From Desulfobacteraceae bacterium (GTDB lineage Bacteria > Desulfobacterota > Desulfobacteria > Desulfobacterales > Desulfosalsimonadaceae), in NCBI GenBank assembly GCA_003551985.1, contig PUOB01000064.1, positions 1 to 19,442 of the forward strand: DNA of 19,442 nucleotides, written 5' to 3'. Each line of letters opens with the position of its first letter. Within the stretch, counting starts at the first letter, position 1. Below are positions 1,075-15,703 of the stretch, one piece after another. Below the pieces are notes generated by a model, which was given only the letters and a program-made list of their open reading frames with translations, was not told where the DNA came from and searched no databases. The position numbers and the translations under genes were made by a program.

Positions 1075-1998
1075 CTAGAGTTCCGGACGGGGCAGCAACC
1101 CCGCCTTTTCAACGATTTCCGGAACCTTTTCCTCCCACTCAATCGCCATGATATGAAAGCCCGCCACGCCCGCCACTTCCTTTAACCGTTGAATGGATTC
1201 CACGGCGATCCGGATGCCCTCTTCGGGCTGCTGTTCCTTGGGGACCGATTCCATCCGCTTGACAACGGCATCCGGTACGTCCATCCCCGGCACCCGGTTT
1301 TTCATGTAACGCGCCATTCCCGCCGTTTTCATGGGGGTTATGCCGGCCAGGATATAGACCTTTTCATGCAGGCCCCGCTGACGGACCCCGTCCATCCAGG
1401 TTTCAAACTTGTCGAGGTTGTAGATGCACTGCGTCTGGATGAAATCCACGCCCGCCTTGACTTTTTTTGCCAGCCGCATGACGCGCAGCTCAAAAGGGTC
1501 GGCAAAGGGGTTCGCGGCGGCACCCACGAACATCTTCGGCGGGTGATCGATGTCCTTTCCCCCCTGGAACTTCCCTTCATCGCGCATCTTGACCACCATC
1601 TGGATCAACTGCACGGAATCAATGTCATGGACATTGGCAGCCATGGGATGGTCGCCGAATTTGGGGTGGTCGCCGGACAGGCACAGCATGGTGTTTATCC
1701 CCAGGGAATAAGCGCCGATGATATCCGCTTGAATGGCAAGCCGGTTGCGGTCCCGGGTCACCATCTGGAGCACCGGGTCCAGACCTATCTGCTTTATCAG
1801 GATTCCAGCCGCCCAGCTGGACATGCGCACCATGGCCGTCTGGTTGTCGGTCACGTTGATGGCATCCACCCAGCCGCGCAGCATGCCGGCCTTTTCCTTT
1901 ACCTTCTCAGGCAGGGCACCCCTGGGCGGGCCGCACTCTGAGGTGACCGCCAGCGCGCCCGAAGCCAGCACCTTTTCCAGTCTGCTCTCGGTTTTCAT
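1075..1998 (-). CDS. metF: Methylenetetrahydrofolate reductase, MetF
   Basis: This 307-residue TIM-barrel flavoprotein of the MTHFR family should reduce 5,10-methylene-tetrahydrofolate to methyl-tetrahydrofolate, the last folate step of the Wood-Ljungdahl methyl branch. The N-terminus has the family E-x-x-P-P-R-G pattern (TSECGPPRG, residues 19-27, E21 at the catalytic glutamate position). Further family-like segments are DAINVTDNQ, the RDRNRLAIQADIIGAYSLG flavin/folate region and FIQTQCIYNLDKF. The ATG at 1998 was chosen because GGGAGGA precedes it and it overlaps the metV stop (ATGA), implying translational coupling; the open frame extends further upstream but only through metV sequence. 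The direct metV neighbour and the upstream mvhD/hdrA fit the MetVF-type complex known from acetogens such as Moorella. Confidence 0.93.
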   Translation of the reverse strand: MKTESRLEKVLASGALAVTSECGPPRGALPEKVKEKAGMLRGWVDAINVTDNQTAMVRMSSWAAGILIKQIGLDPVLQMVTRDRNRLAIQADIIGAYSLGINTMLCLSGDHPKFGDHPMAANVHDIDSVQLIQMVVKMRDEGKFQGGKDIDHPPKMFVGAAANPFADPFELRVMRLAKKVKAGVDFIQTQCIYNLDKFETWMDGVRQRGLHEKVYILAGITPMKTAGMARYMKNRVPGMDVPDAVVKRMESVPKEQQPEEGIRIAVESIQRLKEVAGVAGFHIMAIEWEEKVPEIVEKAGLLPRPEL

Positions 1999-2663
1999 GA
2001 TGCCAGATCCTCCCTTATTATTTTCCGGGGCCCGCCGTCGCGGCTGGTCCGCCAGTCCTTGGCTTCGATAACGTCTTCGATCCGCTTTTCCAGTCCCAGG
2101 GCCTTCAAGCGGTCCCAAATCAACTGCCAGGCGCAGTCGACATTGGCGTCGATTTCACATTTGCCTTTCGTGGAACCGCCGCAGGGGCCGTTCAGCAGCC
2201 GCTTGGAGCACCGGGCAATGGGGCAGATGCCGCCGGTGATCCCCAGCACGCAGTCCCCGCATCCCTGGCACCGCTCGGACCACACCCCCTGGCGCTCGGA
2301 TGCGCCCATGAAGGTGGTGTTGACCGCCGGGAAAACGGGTTTTTCCCGAAAGCGCGCGGCAATCGTCTGCACACCGCAGCCGCAGGCCATGGACAAAACC
2401 GCATCGGCACCGTCAATGCTGTTGACCAGTTCCTCCACGTACTCCGGGTCGCACTGGCGTTCCAGCGTCATCTCCCGGGCCTCCATGGTTTTTCCCTGCT
2501 TCAGAAAATGCATCTGCAGGGCAGAAGACAGAAGCGCCACTTCTTTTCTGCCGCCGGCGGAGCATACGCTCACACATTCATTGCACCCGACCAGAAGGAT
2601 TCGGTCATAGGGGGATACACATGCGATAATCTCTTCCATGGGTTTTCGTACTGCCGTTATCAT
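1995..2663 (-). CDS. metV: MetV, zinc/iron-sulfur partner of MetF (MTHFR C-terminal-like protein)
   Basis: This 222-residue cysteine-rich protein belongs to the family annotated as methylenetetrahydrofolate reductase C-terminal, called MetV in acetogens. Cysteines visible are C27/C30/C34 (GCNECVSVCSAGG), C94/C96 (SMACGCG), C132/C135/C138 (CQGCGDC), C147, C152, C161 (LNGPCGGSTKGKC) and C169. In characterised systems MetV connects MetF to an electron-transferring HdrA/MvhD-type module. GGAGA sits about 8 bases before the ATG. The gene starts 28 bases after mvhD ends and overlaps metF by four bases. All cysteine clusters appear intact. Confidence 0.9.
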   Translation of the reverse strand: MITAVRKPMEEIIACVSPYDRILLVGCNECVSVCSAGGRKEVALLSSALQMHFLKQGKTMEAREMTLERQCDPEYVEELVNSIDGADAVLSMACGCGVQTIAARFREKPVFPAVNTTFMGASERQGVWSERCQGCGDCVLGITGGICPIARCSKRLLNGPCGGSTKGKCEIDANVDCAWQLIWDRLKALGLEKRIEDVIEAKDWRTSRDGGPRKIIREDLAS

Positions 2664-2691
2664 CTTTTCATCTCCAGGTTGTTTTCAATAA

Positions 2692-3138
2692 TTATACTGC
2701 CGCGCGCCGCCCCTGCGCCTTACCGGCGGACCGGATCGGACTGGGGCCCAACGCCCGGATCTTTTCGGTAAATTCGCAGGCCGTCTGCGCAAACCGCTCT
2801 CCCATACCGGCAGACATGAGAATCATTTCCACCCGCCGGCTGTCGAATCCGATCTCCTCAAGCAGCGCTTTTACCCGGCGCACCCGGTGCGCTGCCCGGA
2901 TATTGCCGGTTTTGAAATGGCAGTCCCCTTCCATGCACCCGGCCACATAAACGCCGTCAGCCCCTTTCTCAAGGGCTTTCATGACGTGAATGGCATCGAC
3001 TTTGCCGGTGCACGGCACGCGGATAATTTTGACGTTGGGCGGATAGGGTATCCGCTTGCTGCCGGCCATGTCCGCGGCCGTGTAGGCGCAGTAATGGCAG
3101 CAGAATGCGACAATTTCCGGTTCAAAAATATCTGTCAT
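2692..3138 (-). CDS. mvhD: MvhD/FrhD-like iron-sulfur electron-transfer subunit
   Basis: This 148-residue protein is of the methyl-viologen-reducing hydrogenase delta subunit family, which carries a [2Fe-2S] cluster and bridges electron donors to HdrA. Family signatures are FCCHYCAY (C13, C14, C17) followed by AADMAG, the V-P-C-T-G-K motif (C43), and GCMEGDCHF (C68, C73). It begins on the last base of the hdrA stop (TGATG), with GAGAGGA just upstream. It probably assembles with the HdrA protein and passes electrons between it and the MetVF pair. No hydrogenase large or small subunit is in the window, so the usual hydrogenase partner is replaced or encoded elsewhere. Confidence 0.93.
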   Translation of the reverse strand: MTDIFEPEIVAFCCHYCAYTAADMAGSKRIPYPPNVKIIRVPCTGKVDAIHVMKALEKGADGVYVAGCMEGDCHFKTGNIRAAHRVRRVKALLEEIGFDSRRVEMILMSAGMGERFAQTACEFTEKIRALGPSPIRSAGKAQGRRAAV

Positions 3139-6100
3139 CAGTTCATCCTCTCAAACAGGCCGTCAAGTTTGGCCAGTATCTGGTCGTCTTCATACTGCAT
3201 GAGCTGTATGGCCCGGGCCGGGCAGTCGGCCGCGCAGATGCCGCAGCCGTGGCACTTGGCCGGGTCGATTTCAGAATAGCCTTCCGCATTGATAAACGGC
3301 ACGTTGTATGGGCATGCCCGGACACACACGAGGCATGCGGAGCATTTGGCGCCATCGACTTTTGCAACCGCCGCACCCAAATTGATCCACTGCTTTGCCA
3401 GCATGGTCAGCGCCCGGCCGGCAGCCGCCTGCCCCTGGGTGATGCTTTCGTGAATCGTTTTGGGCGCATGGGCCGTGCCGGCCAGAAAAAAGCCGCGCAC
3501 GGACATGTCCGTGGGGCGCAGCTTGACATGGTCTTCCAGGAAATATCCGTCATCCGTGCGGGGCAAATGAAACAGCACCGACAGTTCCTCTGTTGTTTCA
3601 TCATCAGCGATCAAACCGGTACTCAGCACAACGGCATCCGTTGAAATTTCCAGCCGGCAGCCCAGGATATCGTCGTATACGCTTACGACCATGCTGTCTT
3701 GCGCTGCCCGGACGTCCGGGCGCCGTTCCGGCTCATAGCGGATAAACTGCACCCCCTGCTGCCGGGCTTCTCGGTAATAATCCTCCTGGAAGCCATAGGT
3801 GCGGATATCCCGGTTCAGAATATAAATCTGCATGTCCGGGTTCAGGGCCTTCATCCGCAGGGCGTTTTTGATAGCGCTCTGGCAGCAGATGCGCGAACAG
3901 TTTGGATTGCCCGGCTCTCGGGAACCCACGCACTGGATCATGACGACCTGGTCCATGCGCCGGATCGATTCCGGATCATCGGCGATTTTCGCATCCATAT
4001 CCAACTGGGTCAGGACCCGGTCATCTTCGCCCAGCATGTACTGCCGGGGCCGGCTGACCAGGGCGCCCGTGGCCAGGATGGTAGCGCCGTGCTCAATTTG
4101 CATGTAATGCATTCGCGGGCCCGTCTGGATGCCGGTGGTAAACCGGCCGGGCATCCCCTTGTGATCAACGATGATGGATTGAATCAACACCTGGATTTTC
4201 TCGTGGGCCTGAACTTTTTCCATTAAACCGGACATGTACCGGCCCACATCATCCCCTTCCAGGGTTGTTCGCACCGTGCGGGCGATACCCCCAAGGCGGG
4301 CTTCCCGCTCCACCAGGTAGACCCGGAAACCCTGGTCTGCCAGGAGCAGCGCCGTGTTCATGCCGGTCACCCCGCCGCCGATCACCAGCACATTGCGGTT
4401 CATGGGGAGGGAATGCTCCACCAGGGGATGGGCCCGGATGACACCGTAAACCCCCATCTCCAGCATTTTTAAGGCCTTTCGGGTAGCATCCGCCGGTCGA
4501 TCCATGTGTACCCAGGTATCCTGGTCCCGGATGTTGACGATTTCCACCAGGTACTTGTTCAAACCGCAGCGGCGCAGCATGTCCTGGAATTTGGTTTCAT
4601 GGGTCCGGGGAGAGCATCCGCCGATGACCACACGGTTCAACCGGTGCTCCTGAATCAGGGCTTCCATGCGGTTCATGGACTCCTTGCTGCAACCGTACCC
4701 CATGGCTTCGGCGTATGCCACATTGGGAAAATGCCGGGCCTTTTCCACCACTTCGGAGACTGTGATCACCCCGCCGATATTGGTGCCGCAGTCACACACA
4801 AATACGCCTGCACGAAGCGGTTCTGCGGACACATCGCGTTCCGGGGGGAAAAATTCTTCTTCGTTGATGTCATTTTCATCCAGATGCATATGCGCGCCGG
4901 CCATGGCCGCGGCCGCACTGGCCTGGATCATGGTTTCCGGTATATCCTTGGGGCTTTCGCTCACACCGCAGACGTAGATGCCCGGCCGGGAAGTGGCCAC
5001 CGGTTCAAAACCGCAGGTCTTTGCAAAACCGTGTTCATTGAGATCAATGCCCAGGCGATTGGCAAGCGCCACCGAGCTGTCCGGGATCCGAAACCCGGTG
5101 GACAAAACCACCATGTCAAAAATCTCGGTTTGGTGCCTTGCATTGCCGTCCGTTGCATACGTGATGGAAAGGTCGCCGGTGTCCGGGTCCGCCACGACGG
5201 AATGGGGCCGGGAGCGGATGAGCTTGACCCCGTATTCGTCCACGGCCCGGGTCAGATAGCGCTCGTAGTCCTTGCCGAAGGTCCGCATATCCATGTAGAA
5301 GATGCAGGCCTCTATCTCTTCGGCGAACCGTTCCTTGGTGACAATGGCCTCCTTGAGGGCATACATGCAGCAAACACTGGAGCAGTAGGGCACATCCGCG
5401 CGGTTGATCCCCCGGGACCCGACACACTGGACCCATGCTACCCGTGCCGGGCGCTTCTGGTCCGAAGGGCGGACCAATTGCCCCAGGGTGGGGCCGGAAG
5501 CCGACATGATACGCTCGTATTCCAGGCCGGTAACCACGTTGGGATATTTACCCGCACCGAAATTGTCAAGCACTGCCGGGTCAAACAGTTCCGCCCCGGT
5601 GGCAAGGACGATGGCGGACACGTTCAGGGTCTCGGTGGTTTCCCGGTCATCCGGGCGGATGGCCCCGACCTTGCAGACCCCTTGGAGCGCAGCATAATCC
5701 GTGACTTTTTCCGTATCCACGGAAAATGCATAGGGGGTCGCCTGCGGGTAGCGCATGCATGTGGGCGCCCGGGGATCCAGGCCCGGTGTAAATCTTACCC
5801 ATTCGGGAAATTTTTCCACACACTCGCCGCAGGCGGTGCATGTGTTCAGATCAATGAAGCGGGGCATGGTTTTCACGGTGACCTTAAAGTCACCCACATC
5901 CCCGTCTACCTGTTCGACAATGGTCATGGGTTTGAGATCGATGCGTAGCTGCCGCCCGCTTTCGGAAAGATGCGGCGAGACAGTGCACAGATCGCAGTTG
6001 TTGGTCGGAAACGTCCGGTCCAGGCGGGTCATCAGCCCGCCTATGGCGTAGGATTGGTCAATCAGAACCACGTCGCGCCGGGATTCTGCCAAATCCAGGG

Positions 6101-6188
6101 CGGCCCGGATGCCGCCCACGCCTCCACCGATCACGAGCACGGTTTGCGTTCCTTCTTGCCTGGTGTTCATATCCATATATTCCTGCAT
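3138..6188 (-). CDS. hdrA: Tandem HdrA-like FAD/iron-sulfur protein (two HdrA units fused)
   Basis: This 1016-residue soluble protein consists of two HdrA-type flavin units in series; heterodisulfide reductase A proteins carry the FAD that can bifurcate electrons. Unit 1 has the FAD motif GGGVGG (21-26), NNCDLC (C65, C68) and a degenerate inserted ferredoxin: CTACGEC (C117, C120, C123) is followed by KFP where CP is expected, and the second cluster keeps only C172. Unit 2 starts with the HdrA N-terminal cluster (C465, C467, C500, C525), then FAD GGGVTG (604-609) and CVGSREPGNPNCSRICC (753-769). It ends with two intact ferredoxin clusters (C949/952/955/959 and C979/982/985/989). The ATG at 6188 follows GGGGGA; TTG at 6200 and ATG at 6176 are alternatives. 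No HdrB/HdrC genes adjoin it. Confidence 0.9.
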   Translation of the reverse strand: MQEYMDMNTRQEGTQTVLVIGGGVGGIRAALDLAESRRDVVLIDQSYAIGGLMTRLDRTFPTNNCDLCTVSPHLSESGRQLRIDLKPMTIVEQVDGDVGDFKVTVKTMPRFIDLNTCTACGECVEKFPEWVRFTPGLDPRAPTCMRYPQATPYAFSVDTEKVTDYAALQGVCKVGAIRPDDRETTETLNVSAIVLATGAELFDPAVLDNFGAGKYPNVVTGLEYERIMSASGPTLGQLVRPSDQKRPARVAWVQCVGSRGINRADVPYCSSVCCMYALKEAIVTKERFAEEIEACIFYMDMRTFGKDYERYLTRAVDEYGVKLIRSRPHSVVADPDTGDLSITYATDGNARHQTEIFDMVVLSTGFRIPDSSVALANRLGIDLNEHGFAKTCGFEPVATSRPGIYVCGVSESPKDIPETMIQASAAAAMAGAHMHLDENDINEEEFFPPERDVSAEPLRAGVFVCDCGTNIGGVITVSEVVEKARHFPNVAYAEAMGYGCSKESMNRMEALIQEHRLNRVVIGGCSPRTHETKFQDMLRRCGLNKYLVEIVNIRDQDTWVHMDRPADATRKALKMLEMGVYGVIRAHPLVEHSLPMNRNVLVIGGGVTGMNTALLLADQGFRVYLVEREARLGGIARTVRTTLEGDDVGRYMSGLMEKVQAHEKIQVLIQSIIVDHKGMPGRFTTGIQTGPRMHYMQIEHGATILATGALVSRPRQYMLGEDDRVLTQLDMDAKIADDPESIRRMDQVVMIQCVGSREPGNPNCSRICCQSAIKNALRMKALNPDMQIYILNRDIRTYGFQEDYYREARQQGVQFIRYEPERRPDVRAAQDSMVVSVYDDILGCRLEISTDAVVLSTGLIADDETTEELSVLFHLPRTDDGYFLEDHVKLRPTDMSVRGFFLAGTAHAPKTIHESITQGQAAAGRALTMLAKQWINLGAAVAKVDGAKCSACLVCVRACPYNVPFINAEGYSEIDPAKCHGCGICAADCPARAIQLMQYEDDQILAKLDGLFERMN

Positions 6189-6278
6189 GGGTTCCCCCAA
6201 TAATGACGTTTACGAGTCCGTCGTATTTGATTTTTCAGGCACCCGACTGCTGCCGTTGCCGGATGACAGAACCGGACA

Positions 6279-7151
6279 TCACAGCCCGGCGCCCGACAGA
6301 ATATCCGGCAAGCGGTGCTCCCAGCCAAGGGTCGTGATCTTGATGCCCTGAACCCGATTTTTCAGCTCCGCTGCAGCCTCCCCGGCCATGCGAATGCATT
6401 CGGCTTCCCGGTCAGGCGCTTTGCGGATGCGGCGGATCATGTCCTCGGAAATGCGGGAACCGGGATCATGAATGGATATGTACCGGGCCATCCCCACGTT
6501 TTTGAGCAGGAACAAGGTCGCGATTACCGGCAGTCCAAAAGGCTTCAGTGCATCGACGATGCGCTGGTATGCCCCCAGGTCAAACACCGGCGGGGTGACG
6601 ATATACCGGGCACCGGCTTCCATTTTCCTGCCTATGGCTTCCACTTCATGGGCCAACTGCGTGTCGTCGGCCACCGGGGACATGGCGCATCCCACCGTCA
6701 ACTCGGGCGTGCCCTTCAGTTCAAAACCGGCCATATCCACGCCTTCGCACAGGGATCGAATCATTTTTAAAATTTCAACCTCTCCGAGATCATCAACGGC
6801 ACTGGCCTCCCGGTGGTCACCATTGGCCATGGGTTCAGCCGGCACCGCCAACAGGTGCGGTATCCCCAGCACGTAAGCCGCCAGGACGTCGCCCTGTAGG
6901 GCCATCCGGTTTTTATCCCGGCCATAGATATGCACAACGGTTTCAAGCCCCTCCCGGCGCAGCAGGGCGCCGCCGGCCAGCGCGCTCATCCGCATGACGC
7001 CGTTATCCATGTCCGGGATCACCACAGCATCGACCCGGTCTTTCAAGCGCCTGGCATTGGTCACGAGTTCCGAGATATCCACACCCTTTGGGGTATTCAT
7101 CTCGGCAAGCACCACGAACTCGCCAGCTGACAACTTCTTCTTAAAATTCAT
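6279..7151 (-). CDS. Second, divergent MetF-like methylenetetrahydrofolate reductase family protein
   Basis: This 290-residue protein is a paralogue of the metF at 1075-1998. Both share the N-terminal glutamate segment (VVLAEMNTPKG here, E17), a DNGVMRMSALAGG loop corresponding to DNQTAMVRMSSWAAG, the GRDKNRMALQGDVLAAYVLG block and a V-G-M-A-R-Y motif (212-230 region). It lacks the PPRG signature and is more divergent. GAGG lies about 9 bases before the ATG. It lies 90 bases before hdrA in the same direction, so it is probably part of the same transcript. Its substrate may be methylene-tetrahydrofolate or another folate; it could also be a regulatory or alternative-donor isoform. Family membership is secure, exact function is not. 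Confidence 0.8.
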   Translation of the reverse strand: MNFKKKLSAGEFVVLAEMNTPKGVDISELVTNARRLKDRVDAVVIPDMDNGVMRMSALAGGALLRREGLETVVHIYGRDKNRMALQGDVLAAYVLGIPHLLAVPAEPMANGDHREASAVDDLGEVEILKMIRSLCEGVDMAGFELKGTPELTVGCAMSPVADDTQLAHEVEAIGRKMEAGARYIVTPPVFDLGAYQRIVDALKPFGLPVIATLFLLKNVGMARYISIHDPGSRISEDMIRRIRKAPDREAECIRMAGEAAAELKNRVQGIKITTLGWEHRLPDILSGAGL

Positions 7152-7280
7152 AATTAAACCTCGTTAGATAGGTCATTTATCATCGGATTCCGTTTGATTC
7201 GTCAAAAACGGACACCACCGTACTCCAGATATAACCCCTTGATTAGAACCCAGTGAATCCGCTTATTGAGATCTGGTTTC

Positions 7281-7317
7281 TTCGAAATCGAAATCGCTGT
7301 CGGGATCGAAATCGATC
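7281..7317. repeat. Short degenerate tandem of ATCGAAATCG units
   Basis: The plus strand carries TTCGAAATCGAAATCG, a short spacer, then GGATCGAAATCGATCC: four AATCG-type repeats within about 37 bases, in the 240-base gap between cooS and the metF-like gene. It has no coding significance that I can see. It may be a short sequence repeat of the kind dispersed in Desulfobacterota genomes; that comparison is from memory. Confidence 0.4.
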
Positions 7318-7335
7318 CTCTTTCCTTTTTCATGC

Positions 7336-7367
7336 ACCGGCGCCCCGGTTTTTGCCGGGGCGCCGGT
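7336..7367 (-). other. Perfect 13-bp GC-rich stem-loop between cooS and the metF-like gene
   Basis: Arms at 7336-7348 and 7355-7367 are exact reverse complements (ACCGGCGCCCCGG) around a six-base loop. On the minus strand it begins 24 bases after the cooS stop. There is no T-run after either arm, so it is not a standard intrinsic terminator. It could act as an mRNA-stabilising or processing hairpin that sets cooS expression apart from the downstream genes. Confidence 0.7.
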
Positions 7368-7390
7368 ATACTGTATAAATTGAATGACAA

Positions 7391-9415
7391 TCATGAAGCC
7401 ATGGTTCGACGGTCGGTCATATCAATCAGGACCCGCTTCCTTGCCTTATCAATGCCAAGCGCTTTACGCTTTTTATCGATATGGGCGATCATTTTACGGG
7501 CATGCAGCACGGGATCGATTTCAAGGTCCCACATGCCGCCGTACATTTTTTCAAACTCTTCAAAGAGGTACTTCTGGAATACAGGCGCCCCGGAAACCGG
7601 CAGGGTAACGCCGAATACCGTGTACACGCCCGAAGCCACAAAATAGTGCCCGATGCTGATCGCTTTTTCACTCATCCATTCCGGGGCGCTTCCGGCAACC
7701 GGCAGGTCGCTGATATCTTTCCCAATCCCGCCCGCTTTTACCACTTCCGTGGCTGCCAGAAGGATGCGGCTGTTATCCACGCAGGACCCCATATGCAAAA
7801 CAGGCGGAATTCCAACCGTTTCACACACTTCGGCAAGGCCGGGGCCGCAGAAGACGCCTGCCGTCTCCGGTGTTAGAAGCCCTTCCATGGCGCAGGCAAT
7901 GCCATTGCAGCCGGTGGTCAGGACGATAACGTCATTTTTGATCAATTCTTTGACCACGGTGAGGTGCCCCTCGTTGTGGCGGGTCCTGGCGTTGTTGCAG
8001 CCGACCACGCCCGCGATGCCCCGGATCCTGCCGTTGATGATATTGTCGTTAAGGGTGTAGTAGGATCCCCGGAAGATGCCGCCCAGATTGTACTCGATGG
8101 ATTCAACGCCGAACCCGGCAATCTGGGTGTTTTTATGACGGGGGATCATGACCTCGGTTTTCCGGTTGGCAAAATTGTCGATCGCTATTTTTACGATTCG
8201 CTTGGCATCCTCAAACGCATAGTGCTCGTCAAATTCGATGTGGATGACATTCTCCTGCTCCATTTTTGCGATGGGGTGCGTGGTGATCAGTTTGGTATGG
8301 AAGCATTTTGCCACGTTTGCGAGATTCTGCATGATGCACTGGATGTCCACTACCATGGCATCGCAGGCACCGGTGATGATGGCCAGTTCCTGCTGCAGAA
8401 ACGTACCGCAAAGGGGAACGCCGTGACGCTGCAGAATCTCGTTGGCCGTGCAGCAGATGCCGGACAGCTGGATGCCTTTCGCACCCTTTGCCCTCGCATA
8501 TTCCTGTATTTCCGGGGTCATGGTCGCCGTAACGATCATTTCCGAGAGAACCGGTTCATGGCCGTGAATAACCAGGTTGACATGGTCTTCCTTCAGAACG
8601 CCCAGGTTGGCCTCGGATTGGATTGGATAAGGGGTTCCGAAAAGAACATCCTGGAGGTCGGTTGCCAGCATGGAACCGCCCCAGCCGTCGGCAATGGCCG
8701 TACGGGTTCCCTGTTTCATGAGGTTTTTATAATCCTGGTCCACGCCGATATGCGTGCGGTGCATGATTTCAACGATTTCCCGGTCAATATTGCGGGGGAG
8801 CACGCCGTTTTTTTTCCATTTCTCATAAAGTGCTTCCGGGGCGCGCTTTAAATAAAGAAGCGTTCCCTCGGATTTTCCCCACTCGTTGATTGCCTTTTCC
8901 GCAACCGCCACCGCGATCTCGTCGAGGTCCCTGTCCAGGGTTTCGCCGTCAACTTCAACGGTTACGGCCACATCAAAAAGGGGGGCGATTGCCAGCAGTT
9001 TTTCAACATCCTTGATTTTATAGGCATCGGTTTCTTTTCGTGCCGCGGCCAGAAACACTTCCGCCACGCACCGGCCATGGTCCGAATGGGCGGCCGCACC
9101 GCCGGCGATCATCCGTATGAAATTTCGGGCCGCAATGGTGTTTGCCGAAGCGCCGCACAGCCCTTTTCGCTCGTCCTCACCCTCTATGCCGGACTTCGGC
9201 AGGGGCAGACGGCAGGGCCCCATGCCGCAGTTCTTGCAGCATGTGCCCTGTGAACCGATATTGCAGGGCTTCATTTTTTCGGCCCTTTCAAAAATTGTTT
9301 CAATCCCGAGGTCCTGGGCACGGACAATCATTTCACGGGTTGCCTGATCCACTGTTGCTGCTATCGGATCGGCAAGCTTTTGCTCTTTTTGAGTTTTTTT
9401 TGCATCTTCTTTCAT
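7391..9415 (-). CDS. cooS: Anaerobic Ni-Fe carbon monoxide dehydrogenase, catalytic subunit
   Basis: This 674-residue protein interconverts CO and CO2 at a Ni-Fe-S C-cluster. The N-terminal cluster ligands are C51 and C59 (D-cluster, shared across the dimer) and C60/C63/C68/C87 (B-cluster), in CNIGSQGTCCKNCGMGPC. C-cluster ligands are visible at HGHEP (284-288), C321 (SGICCTANE), C360 (VDIQC), C473 (VVGCNN), C503 (TGCNG) and C545 (HMGSCVDNS). The acid-base lysine region is SEKAISIG (K584). The ATG at 9415 has GGGGAGG seven bases upstream; the frame is open 31 codons further but that part has no family similarity. It is slightly longer than typical CooS. It lies 56 bases after the NifX-like gene. 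No acetyl-CoA synthase or cooC maturation gene is in the window, so monofunctional versus ACS-linked use is unresolved. Confidence 0.97.
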   Translation of the reverse strand: MKEDAKKTQKEQKLADPIAATVDQATREMIVRAQDLGIETIFERAEKMKPCNIGSQGTCCKNCGMGPCRLPLPKSGIEGEDERKGLCGASANTIAARNFIRMIAGGAAAHSDHGRCVAEVFLAAARKETDAYKIKDVEKLLAIAPLFDVAVTVEVDGETLDRDLDEIAVAVAEKAINEWGKSEGTLLYLKRAPEALYEKWKKNGVLPRNIDREIVEIMHRTHIGVDQDYKNLMKQGTRTAIADGWGGSMLATDLQDVLFGTPYPIQSEANLGVLKEDHVNLVIHGHEPVLSEMIVTATMTPEIQEYARAKGAKGIQLSGICCTANEILQRHGVPLCGTFLQQELAIITGACDAMVVDIQCIMQNLANVAKCFHTKLITTHPIAKMEQENVIHIEFDEHYAFEDAKRIVKIAIDNFANRKTEVMIPRHKNTQIAGFGVESIEYNLGGIFRGSYYTLNDNIINGRIRGIAGVVGCNNARTRHNEGHLTVVKELIKNDVIVLTTGCNGIACAMEGLLTPETAGVFCGPGLAEVCETVGIPPVLHMGSCVDNSRILLAATEVVKAGGIGKDISDLPVAGSAPEWMSEKAISIGHYFVASGVYTVFGVTLPVSGAPVFQKYLFEEFEKMYGGMWDLEIDPVLHARKMIAHIDKKRKALGIDKARKRVLIDMTDRRTMAS

Positions 9416-9471
9416 TTCAAATCCTCCCCGGCGTAAAAGTGTTTTTGCCTTGGCGGCCAAACGCTGTCTGC

Positions 9472-9834
9472 CTATAAATGGATTGAAGGGGTTTTTCTCC
9501 TGCGGCAACCCGGCATCAGGTACATGGGATCCGCCAGTTTTCCATTCAGGAACGCTTCTATAACCTCCTTCAAAGACCCTCTCGTATACGAAAACACCTT
9601 GATATTATGTGAAACCAATGCCTTCTCCAGGGAAATGGATATGGCGCCGCATATCAACCATTCGATTCCCAGGCTGGCGACATACCCGGCCCGCAGCAAT
9701 GGATCACTGTGCCGCAGGTCCACTTCGATGCGCCTGACTTCCCGGCCCTTTTCGATTTCAATAAGAAGGATTTCCCTTGACGTGTCAAAAACCGGTGACA
9801 CGCGACCCTGCCAGTATGGTATGGCGATTTTCAT
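9472..9834 (-). CDS. NifX/NifB-type (dinitrogenase iron-molybdenum cofactor family) small protein
   Basis: This 120-residue protein belongs to the COG1433-like family, whose members bind or are predicted to bind Fe-Mo or Fe-S type clusters. The N-terminus MKIAIPYWQGRVSPVFDTS is the family hallmark, followed by a ribonuclease-H-like alternation of strands and helices and ICGAIS at residues 61-66. C110 (MPGCRRRK) is the only other cysteine besides C62. The start at 9834 was chosen for this conserved N-terminus; the open frame extends 27 codons upstream without similarity. No Shine-Dalgarno precedes this ATG, and a sigma54-like promoter ends almost on it, so a leaderless mRNA is possible. It lies 56 bases before cooS and faces a divergent sigma54 activator. 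Confidence 0.85.
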   Translation of the reverse strand: MKIAIPYWQGRVSPVFDTSREILLIEIEKGREVRRIEVDLRHSDPLLRAGYVASLGIEWLICGAISISLEKALVSHNIKVFSYTRGSLKEVIEAFLNGKLADPMYLMPGCRRRKTPSIHL

Positions 9835-9846
9835 GCGATAAAGACT

Positions 9847-9862
9847 GCATGAGGCATGCCAA
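9847..9862 (-). promoter_or_regulatory. Sigma54 (-24/-12) promoter for the NifX-like/cooS operon
   Basis: The minus strand reads TTGGCATGCCTCATGC: the GG and GC dinucleotides are separated by exactly ten bases as sigma54 requires, and TGGCA matches the -24 consensus. The mismatches are T for C after TGGCA and A for T in TTGC. The predicted transcript start is about 9835, right at the NifX-like ATG. The divergent sigma54 activator gene and palindromes 80-140 bases upstream support the call. Confidence 0.6.
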
Positions 9863-9940
9863 GGTTTTTTTAAAAATATAAGGCACTGTTTTATTATTAA
9901 AAAAGACCTATTCAAAAAACATGGGCAGGCTTTTCAACAT

Positions 9941-10075: not shown

Positions 10076-11467
10076 ATGCGAAACCAACAGGCGCTTTCGA
10101 TTATGAACCTTGAAAAAATATACAGGCACTACCACACGATCCTTGATTCCATTAATGAGGGGGTTTTTACCGTTGACCTGAACTGGCGGATTACTACCTT
10201 CAATAAAGCAGCGGAGCGTATCACCGGCGTGACACGTGAACAGGCCATCGGCGTTGCCTGCAGCGAAGTTTTCAGGGCGAATCTCTGCGAGACGTCATGC
10301 GCCCTGAAAAGGACGCTTGAATCCGGCAAATCGATATATAATGCCATGGCCTACTTCATTAACGCATCCGGAAAACACGTACCCATCCGCATTTCCACGG
10401 CGCTCCTGAAGAACAAGTCCGGCAAAATTATCGGCGGCGTGGAAACTTTTCAGGATATTTCCATGATCGAGCAGCTGCGCAAGGAACTCGAGGGGCGCTA
10501 CACATTCGAAGACATCATCGGCAGAAGCCGGACAATGATGGACCTGTTTGAAATTCTGCCCAAAATCGCGGAAAGCGGCAGTACTGTTTTACTGGAAGGC
10601 GCCAGCGGCACCGGCAAGGAGCTTTTTGCAAGGGCCATCCACAACTTATCCGCCCGAAAAAAGAAGCGGTTTATCCCTTTGAATTGCAGCGCCCTTCCGG
10701 ACACCCTTCTCGAATCGGAGCTTTTCGGATACAAGGCCGGCGCCTTTACGGATGCCAAGAAGGACAAGCCGGGCCGCTTTAAATTAGCGGATCATGGGAC
10801 CCTGTTTCTCGATGAAATCGGCGACATTTCCCCTGCCATGCAGGCCCGCCTGCTTCGCGTGCTGCAGGAGCATCAGATTGAGCCCTTGGGCTCTGTGATT
10901 GCGGAAAATATCGATGTCCGGATTATCGCGGCAACCAACAAGGACCTTACAAAATTGGTGCAGTCCGGAAAATTTCGCAAAGACCTGTTCTACCGCATCC
11001 GGGTCATCCATATCCAGCTGCCCGATTTGAAGGACCGGCGGGAAGACATCCCCCTGCTTGTCTCCCACCTGGTATCCAAACTGAACCGGCTCAAGGGAAG
11101 GGATATTGCCGGCGTGTCGGGGTGGGTGATGGCCAGGCTCATGGAATACGAATACCCGGGCAACATCAGGGAGCTCGAAAACATCATTGAACATGCGTTT
11201 GCGCTGTGTGAAGGGGAGCTGATCGATCGGGAGCACCTGCCTCCGGAGCACCGCCCGGAGGCCGTTTCAATTATGCAGGGACCGGACACCGCCGCATCCC
11301 TGAAAACGATGGAAAACGCCTTAATCAAGGAGGTGCTGCGACGCCACGGGGGCAGCAGAATACGTGCTGCCCGGGAACTGGGCATTGACACGAGTACGCT
11401 TTACCGGAAAATCAAGGCGATGGAAATTGCGCTTCCGCCCAGGGATGGCAGAAGCCGGAAGGAATAG
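10076..11467 (+). CDS. PAS-containing sigma54-dependent enhancer-binding protein
   Basis: This 463-residue activator has a PAS domain (about 17-130), an AAA+ ATPase (about 145-375) and a Fis-type helix-turn-helix (about 409-447, RIRAARELGIDTSTLYRKIK). Walker A is GASGTGKE (175-182), Walker B is GTLFLDEIGD (241-250), and the sigma54-contact loop reads GAFTDA (222-227) instead of GAFTGA. The PAS domain has C71 and C75 (LCETSCALKRT), possible redox or metal ligands. It is transcribed divergently from the NifX-like/cooS operon and is the natural candidate to drive the sigma54 promoter at 9847-9862. The ATG at 10076 has no clear ribosome binding site; ATG 10103 is an alternative. A decayed paralogue lies at 11911-12316. 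Confidence 0.92.
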   Translation: MRNQQALSIMNLEKIYRHYHTILDSINEGVFTVDLNWRITTFNKAAERITGVTREQAIGVACSEVFRANLCETSCALKRTLESGKSIYNAMAYFINASGKHVPIRISTALLKNKSGKIIGGVETFQDISMIEQLRKELEGRYTFEDIIGRSRTMMDLFEILPKIAESGSTVLLEGASGTGKELFARAIHNLSARKKKRFIPLNCSALPDTLLESELFGYKAGAFTDAKKDKPGRFKLADHGTLFLDEIGDISPAMQARLLRVLQEHQIEPLGSVIAENIDVRIIAATNKDLTKLVQSGKFRKDLFYRIRVIHIQLPDLKDRREDIPLLVSHLVSKLNRLKGRDIAGVSGWVMARLMEYEYPGNIRELENIIEHAFALCEGELIDREHLPPEHRPEAVSIMQGPDTAASLKTMENALIKEVLRRHGGSRIRAARELGIDTSTLYRKIKAMEIALPPRDGRSRKE

Positions 11468-11556: not shown

Positions 11557-11610
11557 CGTGCTCGCAGGAAAACCACCCATCCCGTTATTTTTTAAAAATG
11601 AGGACTTGAT

Positions 11611-11892
11611 ATGTATCAACTGATTGTTTTCCATAGCGGAAACCCCCGCTGAGTGTCTTGCCAAAAGGCTATGGGCGTAGCCAGGGAGATGGCAGAAAGC
11701 TTTAAAGGTCAATTGGATGTGAAATTTTACACCATGGATTCCCAGGAAGCGAAAAAGCACCACTTCAAGGGTGCAACAGTGGTTTATTTTGAAAATGAAG
11801 CCGTTCCGATTAAGGTGGCCATGGATAAAATCCAAATGGAAGCGTTTTTATCGGAGCGAATAAACCCCCAAAGCGGCCCGGAAAATAATTGA
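11611..11892 (+). CDS. Thioredoxin-like selenoprotein with U-x-x-C motif (in-frame TGA at 11650-11652)
   Basis: Reading the TGA at 11650-11652 as selenocysteine gives one 93-residue protein: a beta strand (MYQLIVFHSGNPR), then U14-V15-S16-C17 at the start of a helix (QKAMGVAREMAE). A second strand (DVKFYTMD), a GATVVYFENEAVPI hairpin and a C-terminal helix (DKIQMEAFLSERI) follow, as in a thioredoxin-like fold with a redox U-x-x-C pair. GAGGA lies about 7 bases before the ATG at 11611. Without readthrough only a 13-residue peptide results, and the remaining ORF would start at GTG 11653 with no ribosome binding site and no first strand. A hairpin with a G-containing loop lies 19 bases after the TGA, as expected for a bacterial SECIS. 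It is probably a thiol/disulfide redox protein; the partner is unknown. Confidence 0.78.
11667..11682 (+). promoter_or_regulatory. Candidate bacterial SECIS stem-loop
   Basis: GGCTA (11667-11671) pairs perfectly with TAGCC (11678-11682) around the loop TGGGCG. The loop starts 19 bases after the TGA, and G is its second base. Both match the known bacterial SECIS rules: loop about 16-37 nt from UGA, and a G among the first two loop bases. It lies inside the coding region, as bacterial SECIS elements do. Confidence 0.65.
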
Positions 11893-11910: not shown

Positions 11911-12316
11911 AATATCTGCGAAGGGGACTGCGCCCTGAAAAGGACCATGAAAGAAAAAAACCGTTTGTCGCCATCAATTGCGTTGCGCTTCCGGATACGC
12001 TCCTTGAATCGGAGCTGTTCGGATACAAGGCAGGCGCTTTTACAGGTGCGAGGGCGGGAAATCATGGGGGTGTCGGAAGAGGTGATGGCGTGGCTGATGG
12101 AATATGATTACCCGGGCAATGTCCGGGAACTGGAGAACATCATCGAGCATGCGTTCGCGCTGTGCAACGGCGATCTGGTCGAATGCCGGCACCTGCCACC
12201 GGAACACCGGCCCGGCAATACCCCGGCGGAAGACGTGCCTGCGTTTTCACTCAAGGCCATGGAAGAAGCACTGATATGAAGAGCGCTGGTACGCCACGGC
12301 GGCAGAAGTCATAAAA
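11911..12316 (+). pseudogene. Deleted and frameshifted copy of the sigma54 activator
   Basis: Three blocks match the intact activator in order. The first, 11911-11949, reads [14 protein letters not shown] against residues 68-81. The second, 11953-12045, reads KKPFVAINC then [22 protein letters not shown] against about 195-227. The third, 12055-12316, reads [20 protein letters not shown] and onward against about 341-428. The parts between (most of PAS, Walker A, Walker B and the ATPase core) are deleted, the blocks are in different frames, and a TGA at 12276-12278 interrupts the C-terminus before the helix-turn-helix. The second block still has the canonical GAFTGA, unlike the intact gene's GAFTDA, so the copies diverged before decay or came from different sources. 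It cannot make a working regulator. Confidence 0.88.
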
Positions 12317-14424: not shown

Positions 14425-14862
14425 ATGAAGAAGATTGGAATAATCATTTGTAACCGCTATCACACTTGTGCGGGCGGGAAGTGTCTCCGAGCTATGCGCA
14501 ACCGTGAAGGGGCTTTTTCCCTGTACAAGGGAGATGAAATAGATCTTGTCGGATTTACTACATGCGGGGGATGTCCTGGTGGAAATGTAGAATACGCTCC
14601 AGCAGAAATGAAAAGAAATGGAGCAGATGTCATCCATTTAGCCACCGGTTTAGTGGTCGGATATCCACCTTGTCCACGGTTGAAAGATTTTTGCAGTTAC
14701 ATTCCTGCAAAGTACGGATTGGATGTGGTAATTGGCACGCATCCAATACCTCAAAACTATTATTTAACTCACGAAAAACTTGGCACTTGGCAAACTGATA
14801 AATGGCAAAATCGAATTAAGCATGTCTTACCAAACGAAGAGATGCGCTTGGCATATGATTAA
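14425..14862 (+). CDS. CGGC-domain putative metal-binding protein
   Basis: This 145-residue protein has the CGGC-domain signature FTTCGGCPGGN (C47, C50), preceded by C9, C15 and C20 (IICNRYHTCAGGKC) and followed by C83 and C90 (PPCPRLKDFC). The family is described as putative metal- or cluster-binding and is common in strict anaerobes; its biochemistry is not established. AGGGG precedes the ATG by about 10 bases. The gene is AT-richer than the CODH operon, which hints at separate acquisition. A second, shorter relative lies at 15338-15703. Confidence 0.85.
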   Translation: MKKIGIIICNRYHTCAGGKCLRAMRNREGAFSLYKGDEIDLVGFTTCGGCPGGNVEYAPAEMKRNGADVIHLATGLVVGYPPCPRLKDFCSYIPAKYGLDVVIGTHPIPQNYYLTHEKLGTWQTDKWQNRIKHVLPNEEMRLAYD

Positions 14863-15296: not shown

Positions 15297-15337
15297 TTTC
15301 AGGCAAGACGGAAAAGCCAAAGGGAGTATTGAAGATA

Positions 15338-15703
15338 ATGGAAAAAATATTGATTGTCGGATGCAAAAGAGCCATGGACGATGTGTGTATCGGTTGTTCA
15401 CGCTGTATGGTCGGCTTTAACAGAAGAGCCGGCGAATTTGAACGTTACGGCAGCGATGATGCTGAACTGATAGGGCTTATTAACTGCGGAGACTGTCCGG
15501 GTGCAACCATTGTTACACGGCTTGCGCAAGTCAACCTCTGGAACAAGGCGGTTGATGAGAACGTGACCAAAGTGCATGTCGCTCCATGCATTGCGGATCA
15601 TTGCCCTTACAAAGATGCAATTGTCGGGAAAATAAACGCTAAGGCCGGGGTTGAAGTCATTCAAGGTACCCATCCGTATAAACCGTCGGATATATTTGCT
15701 TGA
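15338..15703 (+). CDS. CGGC-like putative metal-binding protein
   Basis: This 121-residue protein, related to the CGGC-domain family, has CGDC in the signature position (LINCGDCPG, C50 and C53). It also has C9, a VCIGCSRC cluster (C17, C20, C23) and C84/C89 (APCIADHCPY). Eight cysteines in ferredoxin-like spacing suggest a metal or iron-sulfur site; its activity is not known. GGGAG lies 11 bases before ATG 15338; an in-frame TTG at 15329 is too close to that box. It follows the zinc-ribbon gene by 41 bases, likely under the same TATGCTCATA element. Confidence 0.78.
   Translation: MEKILIVGCKRAMDDVCIGCSRCMVGFNRRAGEFERYGSDDAELIGLINCGDCPGATIVTRLAQVNLWNKAVDENVTKVHVAPCIADHCPYKDAIVGKINAKAGVEVIQGTHPYKPSDIFA

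Follow-up and report, generated by a model that had tools for sequence, protein, structure and literature searches.

Selenoproteins with a UxxC motif include TsoX, which is listed as such in a 2026 review (PMC13188914). The review credits TsoX to Haft and Tolstoy 2025, mSystems (its ref. 64), and spells out Tso as "three selenoprotein operon", a set of adjacent, otherwise unrelated selenoprotein genes. NCBIfam holds a model for the family, NF045809 (seleno_TsoX, "HSGNPxU motif (seleno)protein TsoX"). Here we describe a tsoX gene on a contig of a Desulfobacteraceae bacterium; the window, that is, the whole stretch of DNA analysed, is 19,442 nt long. Read through its in-frame TGA, the gene product matches NF045809 with 116.2 bits (5.6e-34; cut-off 52) over nearly the full length of the model, residues 3-82 aligning with profile positions 2-81 of 82. 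The HSGNPxU and UxxC motifs are common to both, the UGA lies at the same place, and no essential difference from the described family was found. The HUIPC motif family (NF047660) and SaoT (NF040730) are likewise thioredoxin-like UxxC (seleno)proteins, but the window protein reaches only about 14 bits against either model, with cut-offs at 105 and 65, respectively. A first-pass annotation made from the DNA letters had called this an overlooked selenoprotein, a description that has to be withdrawn, since an NCBIfam model exists for the family and the review lists TsoX; the family of selenoproteins being already named and published, the window gene adds one more member to it. We hold with high confidence that the locus encodes a TsoX family member in a Desulfobacterales-type bacterium, with selenocysteine (Sec) inserted at the TGA. 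The features on which the following discussion draws are these:

10076..11467, + strand: gene for a PAS/sigma-54 activator, some 143 nt 5' of tsoX
11600..11604, + strand: Shine-Dalgarno-like GAGGA, 6 nt 5' of the ATG (from the sequence, and loose-pattern runs in 44/46 copies)
11611..11892, + strand: tsoX, a 93-residue predicted thioredoxin-like selenoprotein (from translation, the NF045809 match and 46 homologous copies)
11650..11652, + strand: predicted Sec-encoding TGA, codon 14 (TGA at the aligned codon in 46/47 copies, the window included)
11667..11682, + strand: bSECIS upper stem-loop GGCTAT-GGGC-GTAGCC (from conserved register, covariation and published bSECIS geometry)
11890..11892, + strand: terminal TGA, the true stop of tsoX (from translation, the lack of a SECIS-like element after it, and the 18/46 copies that end in TGA)
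11947..12279, + strand: remnant gene immediately 3' of tsoX, with just the AAA lid domain of a second PAS/sigma-54 activator

The tsoX frame opens at the ATG at 11611, is interrupted solely by the TGA at 11650-11652, and then stays open to the TGA at 11890-11892. Its readthrough product begins MYQLIVFHSGNPRUVSCQKAMG and is 93 residues long, with the UxxC motif in the context HSGNPRUVSC and the predicted Sec at residue 14. Translation and the GAGGA run thus bear out the first-pass annotation in its coordinates, its start codon, its ribosome binding site and its in-frame TGA. The same annotation had expected automated gene calling to truncate the protein at or after the TGA, and this is what is seen: a mechanical ORF call runs from a GTG at 11653 to 11892 and gives 79 aa, and the protein database entry (P0002, a cluster with 3 member sequences) is the same 79-aa truncated form. 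When the readthrough protein was used as query against 5.8 billion protein sequences, this truncated form of the same protein was the sole match, so that the search could give no showing of Cys or Sec homologues. A match to PF26315 listed by the protein search was not reproduced by a Pfam scan.

Homologues were instead recovered at the level of genomes, by a search with NF045809. TsoX was over the cut-off in 21 of 395 genomes of the phylum and in 26 of 389 genomes of the order, one of the latter with two copies; the two sets overlap by two genomes, leaving 45 distinct genomes with 46 copies, while none of 14 control genomes passed. Rows under the cut-off (4 in the phylum set, 13 in the order set) were dropped before counting; one copy with an extra TAG (G613, L094; G and L numbers denote genomes and loci) and a shortened one (G633, L102) were both counted. 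Nine dropped or neighbouring loci, L048 among them, were inspected: L046, L047, L049, L104, L105 and L106 are thioredoxin-like proteins with Cys-x-x-Cys, and L102 is the shortened copy already counted. Locus L103 (G616), at 50.5 bits just under the cut-off, holds a TsoX-like stretch that lacks the HSGNPxU region and is for that reason probably a remnant or decayed copy. Two tandem TsoX copies, at 1498-1749 and about 1857-2108 and both with the TGA, were noticed in L087 (G511).

The codon aligned with the window's TGA is a TGA in 45 of the 46 other copies, hence in 46 of 47 with the window. The sole exception, in G314 (L043), has TTA for Leu and may reflect recent loss of Sec, decay or an assembly error. 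This TTA (194-196 in L043) lies near a contig edge, and the hairpin of that copy is still intact. No copy among the 47 has Cys at this codon, and there is thus no Cys homologue on which the usual Cys/Sec argument could be anchored. An alignment check of position 14 for Cys or Sec, as proposed in the first pass, accordingly gives TGA in all copies except the one with Leu. Among the most conserved columns, counted over 46 copies without the second copy of G511, are H8, C17 and A24 (46 each) together with position 14, the predicted Sec (45). With script-picked starts, the distance from start codon to TGA is 9-15 codons in 46 copies, and 13 codons in 39 of them, so no homologue was seen that begins downstream of the TGA; a Shine-Dalgarno-like run matching a loose pattern is present in 44/46. 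Eighteen of 46 copies, the window's included, end in TGA.

Following the TGA in the window, the sequences GGCTAT and GTAGCC form a 6-bp stem that includes a terminal T-G pair and whose first base is nt 15 after the TGA; the loop GGGC occupies nt 21-24, leaving 20 nt between TGA and loop. The published bSECIS geometry, as given in the review, calls for a loop of 3-9 nt on a stem of 4-16 bp, a G in the first two loop positions and a loop 16-37 nt after the UGA (PMC13188914), and the window element, with its 4-nt loop, 6 bp and 20-nt spacing, falls within these published limits. The first-pass annotation had drawn the same element with 5 bp and a 6-nt loop; the element stands, with the loop position corrected by 1-2 nt. 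On its own, such a hairpin is weak evidence. In the window, a stem of at least 6 bp in loose bSECIS geometry follows 125 of the 655 TGA triplets on both strands, while the exact register of the tsoX element follows just 2 of the 655, tsoX's own among them. Folding of single sequences is not decisive: the best fold of the window RNA has the hairpin at lengths of 33, 36, 39 and 60 nt and lacks it at 30 and 45 nt, and at 45 nt, where the window's RNA does not show it, the best fold contains the full hairpin in 17 of 22 copies. An Rfam scan of the window gave three matches, all below gathering scores and none a SECIS element.

What makes the hairpin convincing is not its strength; it is the conserved register, the loop G and the covariation across the 47 copies. 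The 39 columns from the TGA onward align without gaps. All six pairs form in 40 of the 47 copies, at least one pair failing in the other 7, and the G at loop position 2 is present in all 47. The most telling pair, 18-27, is T-A in 36 copies, C-G in 9, A-T in 1 and G-G in 1; it joins the third bases, both silent, of the codons for Ala20 and Val23. In eight genes of the window, GCT accounts for 8% of the Ala codons and GTA for 11% of the Val codons, and with the codon usage of these genes the two third positions would be expected to form a Watson-Crick pair by chance in 32% of cases. Over 44 distinct rows, 96.6% of cells pair in the conserved register, against 19-51% in slid registers. Cells with changes on both sides number 13, compared with 2.8 +/- 1.4 in shuffles that ignore relatedness, a level that none of 500 shuffles reaches; counted by pairs, two-sided change is seen in 3 against 1.5, weakly above the same relatedness-blind shuffles, of which 22/500 reach 3. 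RNAalifold recovered the same helix unprompted. After the terminal TGA, by comparison, there is no SECIS-like element, the best stem having 4 bp and 3 of 6 positions pairing in the fixed register.

The first-pass annotation had also pointed to the selenocysteine machinery as a check. We examined it in six relatives (G001, G015, G002, G003, G004 and G005), a set that stands apart from the window's own genome and in which G001 and G015 are, judged by the HdrA-like gene described below, the nearest two genomes with TsoX. The tRNA-Sec model passes its cut-off in all six relatives, and it also passes in 5 of the 14 controls, so that a tRNA-Sec match alone is soft. Among the proteins, selB is over the cut-off in 5 of the 6 relatives (2/14 controls), selA in 4 (1/14) and selD in 4, each with its own in-frame TGA (2/14). 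The selB of G001 is a contig-edge piece covering profile positions 1-222, and is still over the cut-off. All four parts, selA, selB, selD and tRNA-Sec, are over their cut-offs in G001, G015 and G003 only, among the six; the gaps in the other relatives may be due to incomplete assemblies. With the complete set in both G001 and G015, the machinery of the relatives gives no argument against Sec. No tRNA was found in the window.

The AlphaFold2 model of the window protein (pLDDT 89.5) has a strand at residues 2-8, then residue 14 and then a helix at 15-30, so that the catalytic pair would sit at the N-terminus of helix 1 of a thioredoxin-like fold. The top Foldseek matches of this model in the PDB are thioredoxins (best E 1.2e-4, probability 1.00), with TM-scores by query length mostly of 0.6-0.7. 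A profile of 36 copies searched against the PDB likewise finds thioredoxins (best E 1e-5), and aligns position 14 with residue 32 of E. coli-type thioredoxin chains. Compared with thioredoxin itself (PF00085; E. coli TrxA), the window protein has the same fold by model, the same active-site position and the same spacing, whereas the predicted Sec replaces the first Cys and the N-terminus is shorter; against PF00085 it scores 14.3 bits, below the gathering score of 23.5. The agreement of model, structure search and profile search supports the first-pass proposal of a predicted thioredoxin-like fold.

A suggestion as to what reduces such a protein comes from its relatives. In G163 (L045, 1489-2712), a TsoX domain with its own in-frame TGA continues into a complete thioredoxin reductase; the fusion scores 384 bits against TIGR01292 (cut-off 343) and 94.5 bits against NF045809. 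The AhpF-type model TIGR03140 aligns with residues 16-398 of this fusion, from the TsoX domain into the reductase, at 258 bits against a cut-off of 503; this score, together with the predicted Sec in the thioredoxin-like part, by which it differs from AhpF-type reductases, is why we do not file the fusion as AhpF. The window protein itself differs from AhpF-type reductases (TIGR03140) in having no reductase domain. By eye, the hairpin of the G163 fusion fits better with a one-base shift and a loop of 5 nt. Reductase genes are also found next to unfused copies: in G484 about 0.1 kb upstream of tsoX on the same strand, and in G520 likewise upstream, at slightly less than 1 kb. The count leaves out G393, where a truncated reductase-like stretch lies about 1.2 kb 5' of tsoX. 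A reductase thus lies within about 1 kb of tsoX in 3 of 45 genomes, against an expectation of about 0.05 given 84 reductase-like genes (0.09 for 2 kb), a comparison that is suggestive only, as it was framed after the fusion had been seen. In the window, no partner for electron transfer by TsoX was found.

Taken in sequence, the events at this locus would run as follows. SelB with Sec-tRNA(Sec) would bind the hairpin, its loop set 20 nt beyond the UGA, and the ribosome would insert Sec at residue 14. Translation would end at the second UGA, 237 nt downstream of the first, after which no such hairpin follows. The product would be a short thioredoxin fold with, in the model, Sec14 at the N-terminus of helix 1 and Cys17 as the presumed resolving thiol of a U-x-x-C couple. 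A thioredoxin-reductase-type flavoprotein could then reduce TsoX, which in turn may hand electrons to some disulfide, peroxide or other oxidised substrate; for both of these last steps we regard the support as moderate. Most likely, then, TsoX is a selenium-containing thioredoxin reduced by thioredoxin reductase. The more specific proposal is that TsoX is a selenium-containing thioredoxin of a dedicated kind, with thioredoxin reductase as its direct partner and a separate reductase in that role where the two are not fused; we put it forward tentatively, giving it somewhat less than an even chance.

The surroundings of the gene were examined in the window and in relatives. From 1075 to 9508 the window carries a one-carbon/CO locus with two MTHFR-type proteins, DUF5981, FlpD, an HdrA-like protein of 1020 aa (3138-6200) and the catalytic subunit of CO dehydrogenase, adjoined by a dinitrogenase iron-molybdenum cofactor domain protein (9472-9915). 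Further on, two CGGC-domain (PF08821) proteins are encoded on the + strand about 0.5 kb apart, at 14425-14862 and 15329-15703. When TsoX was used as a query over contigs, no relative was confirmed among 32 stretches, and the HdrA-like neighbour was therefore taken as a second query. It found 23 loci, all in records of Desulfobacterales, Desulfobacteraceae or other deltaproteobacteria, with the best matches in two Desulfobacteraceae MAGs (L001, 89%; L015, 86%). The gene order of L015 is that of the window: HdrA, MTHFR, CODH, the NifX-like protein, the sigma-54 regulator and TsoX. In the 22 genomes behind the HdrA-like loci, L023 being omitted as from the same MAG as L009, TsoX was over the cut-off in two, G001 and G015.

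Across the family, the neighbourhoods of tsoX are diverse: no gene family occurs in more than 4 of the 22 distinct neighbourhoods clustered, where L015 and L079 were treated as the same place, L078 of G163 was omitted and ORFs below 90 aa were omitted. The PAS/sigma-54 activator upstream of tsoX is also present in L015/L079, and one lies downstream of tsoX in L075; in the syntenic relative L079, a full-length activator of 543 aa stands in the place of the window's remnant. By eye, small J-domain-like proteins with an HPD motif directly adjoin tsoX in L036, L094 and L099, and in L088 (G476) tsoX is flanked by two HdrA/Qmo-like flavoprotein genes. No other Tso protein was found near the window's tsoX: there is no Tso model among the NCBIfam matches listed for ten standard ORFs or for ten frames around tsoX read with TGA as Cys, the latter also giving no further selenoprotein family. 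A place beside other Tso genes is not a fixed trait of tsoX, for in a search for TsoY and TsoB (26 genomes in all, four without TsoX) most of the 22 genomes with TsoX had neither next to it, TsoY adjoining TsoX in 2 of the 22 and full TsoB in 1; in G163, a contig-edge TsoB-like piece with two TGAs remains under the cut-off.

Two readings of the locus would do without Sec. The TGA could be a true stop, either of a broken thioredoxin-like gene or upstream of a protein that truly starts at GTG 11653, and in its favour gene callers do yield the 79-aa form and the neighbouring regulator is itself a remnant. We consider this very improbable. Of the 47 copies, 46 have TGA at this codon, preceded by a conserved HSGNP motif; a hairpin that covaries at silent sites is not what gene decay would leave behind; and, judging from the model, the truncated form would lack strand 1 and one half of its active site. 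A still fainter chance attaches to the idea that UGA is read as some other amino acid, through a general change of code or through suppression: the frame would be open under any code in which UGA is sense. Against it, UGA is the terminator in 18 of 46 copies, the window's tsoX included; the hairpin, like the set of selA, selB, selD and tRNA-Sec, is specific to Sec; and no UGA has to be read through to complete the window's large genes. The in-frame TGA of tsoX thus almost certainly encodes selenocysteine, a reading that comes from comparison of sequences.

If Sec is accepted, the role of TsoX is more open to argument. Instead of carrying electrons, it could carry selenium or a metal, or sense redox state for the sigma-54 regulator next to it; it adjoins PAS/sigma-54 activators in the window, in L015/L079 and in L075, and it adjoins TsoY in two and TsoB in one of 22 TsoX genomes. 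Among the 22 clustered neighbourhoods, however, the pairing with the regulator is confined to close relatives, and both the reductase fusion and the reductase neighbours point to electron transfer, so we judge a carrier or sensor role less likely, though far from negligible. The reading of TsoX as a selenium-containing thioredoxin reduced by thioredoxin reductase is the one we prefer. The main proposal of the first-pass annotation, a 93-residue selenocysteine redox protein with a U-x-x-C motif, is on comparative grounds well supported as a prediction.

The window gene is an instance of a selenoprotein that plain gene calling truncates and that comparative evidence confirms, and in the alignment of TsoX SECIS elements RNA pairing plainly keeps silent codon positions in register. 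What might be new to a specialist is the reductase fusion. If our reading is correct, the G163 fusion would be a bacterial NADPH-to-selenium relay in one chain, and the fused or adjacent reductases, as the suggested source of electrons, would give the TsoX family a testable role.
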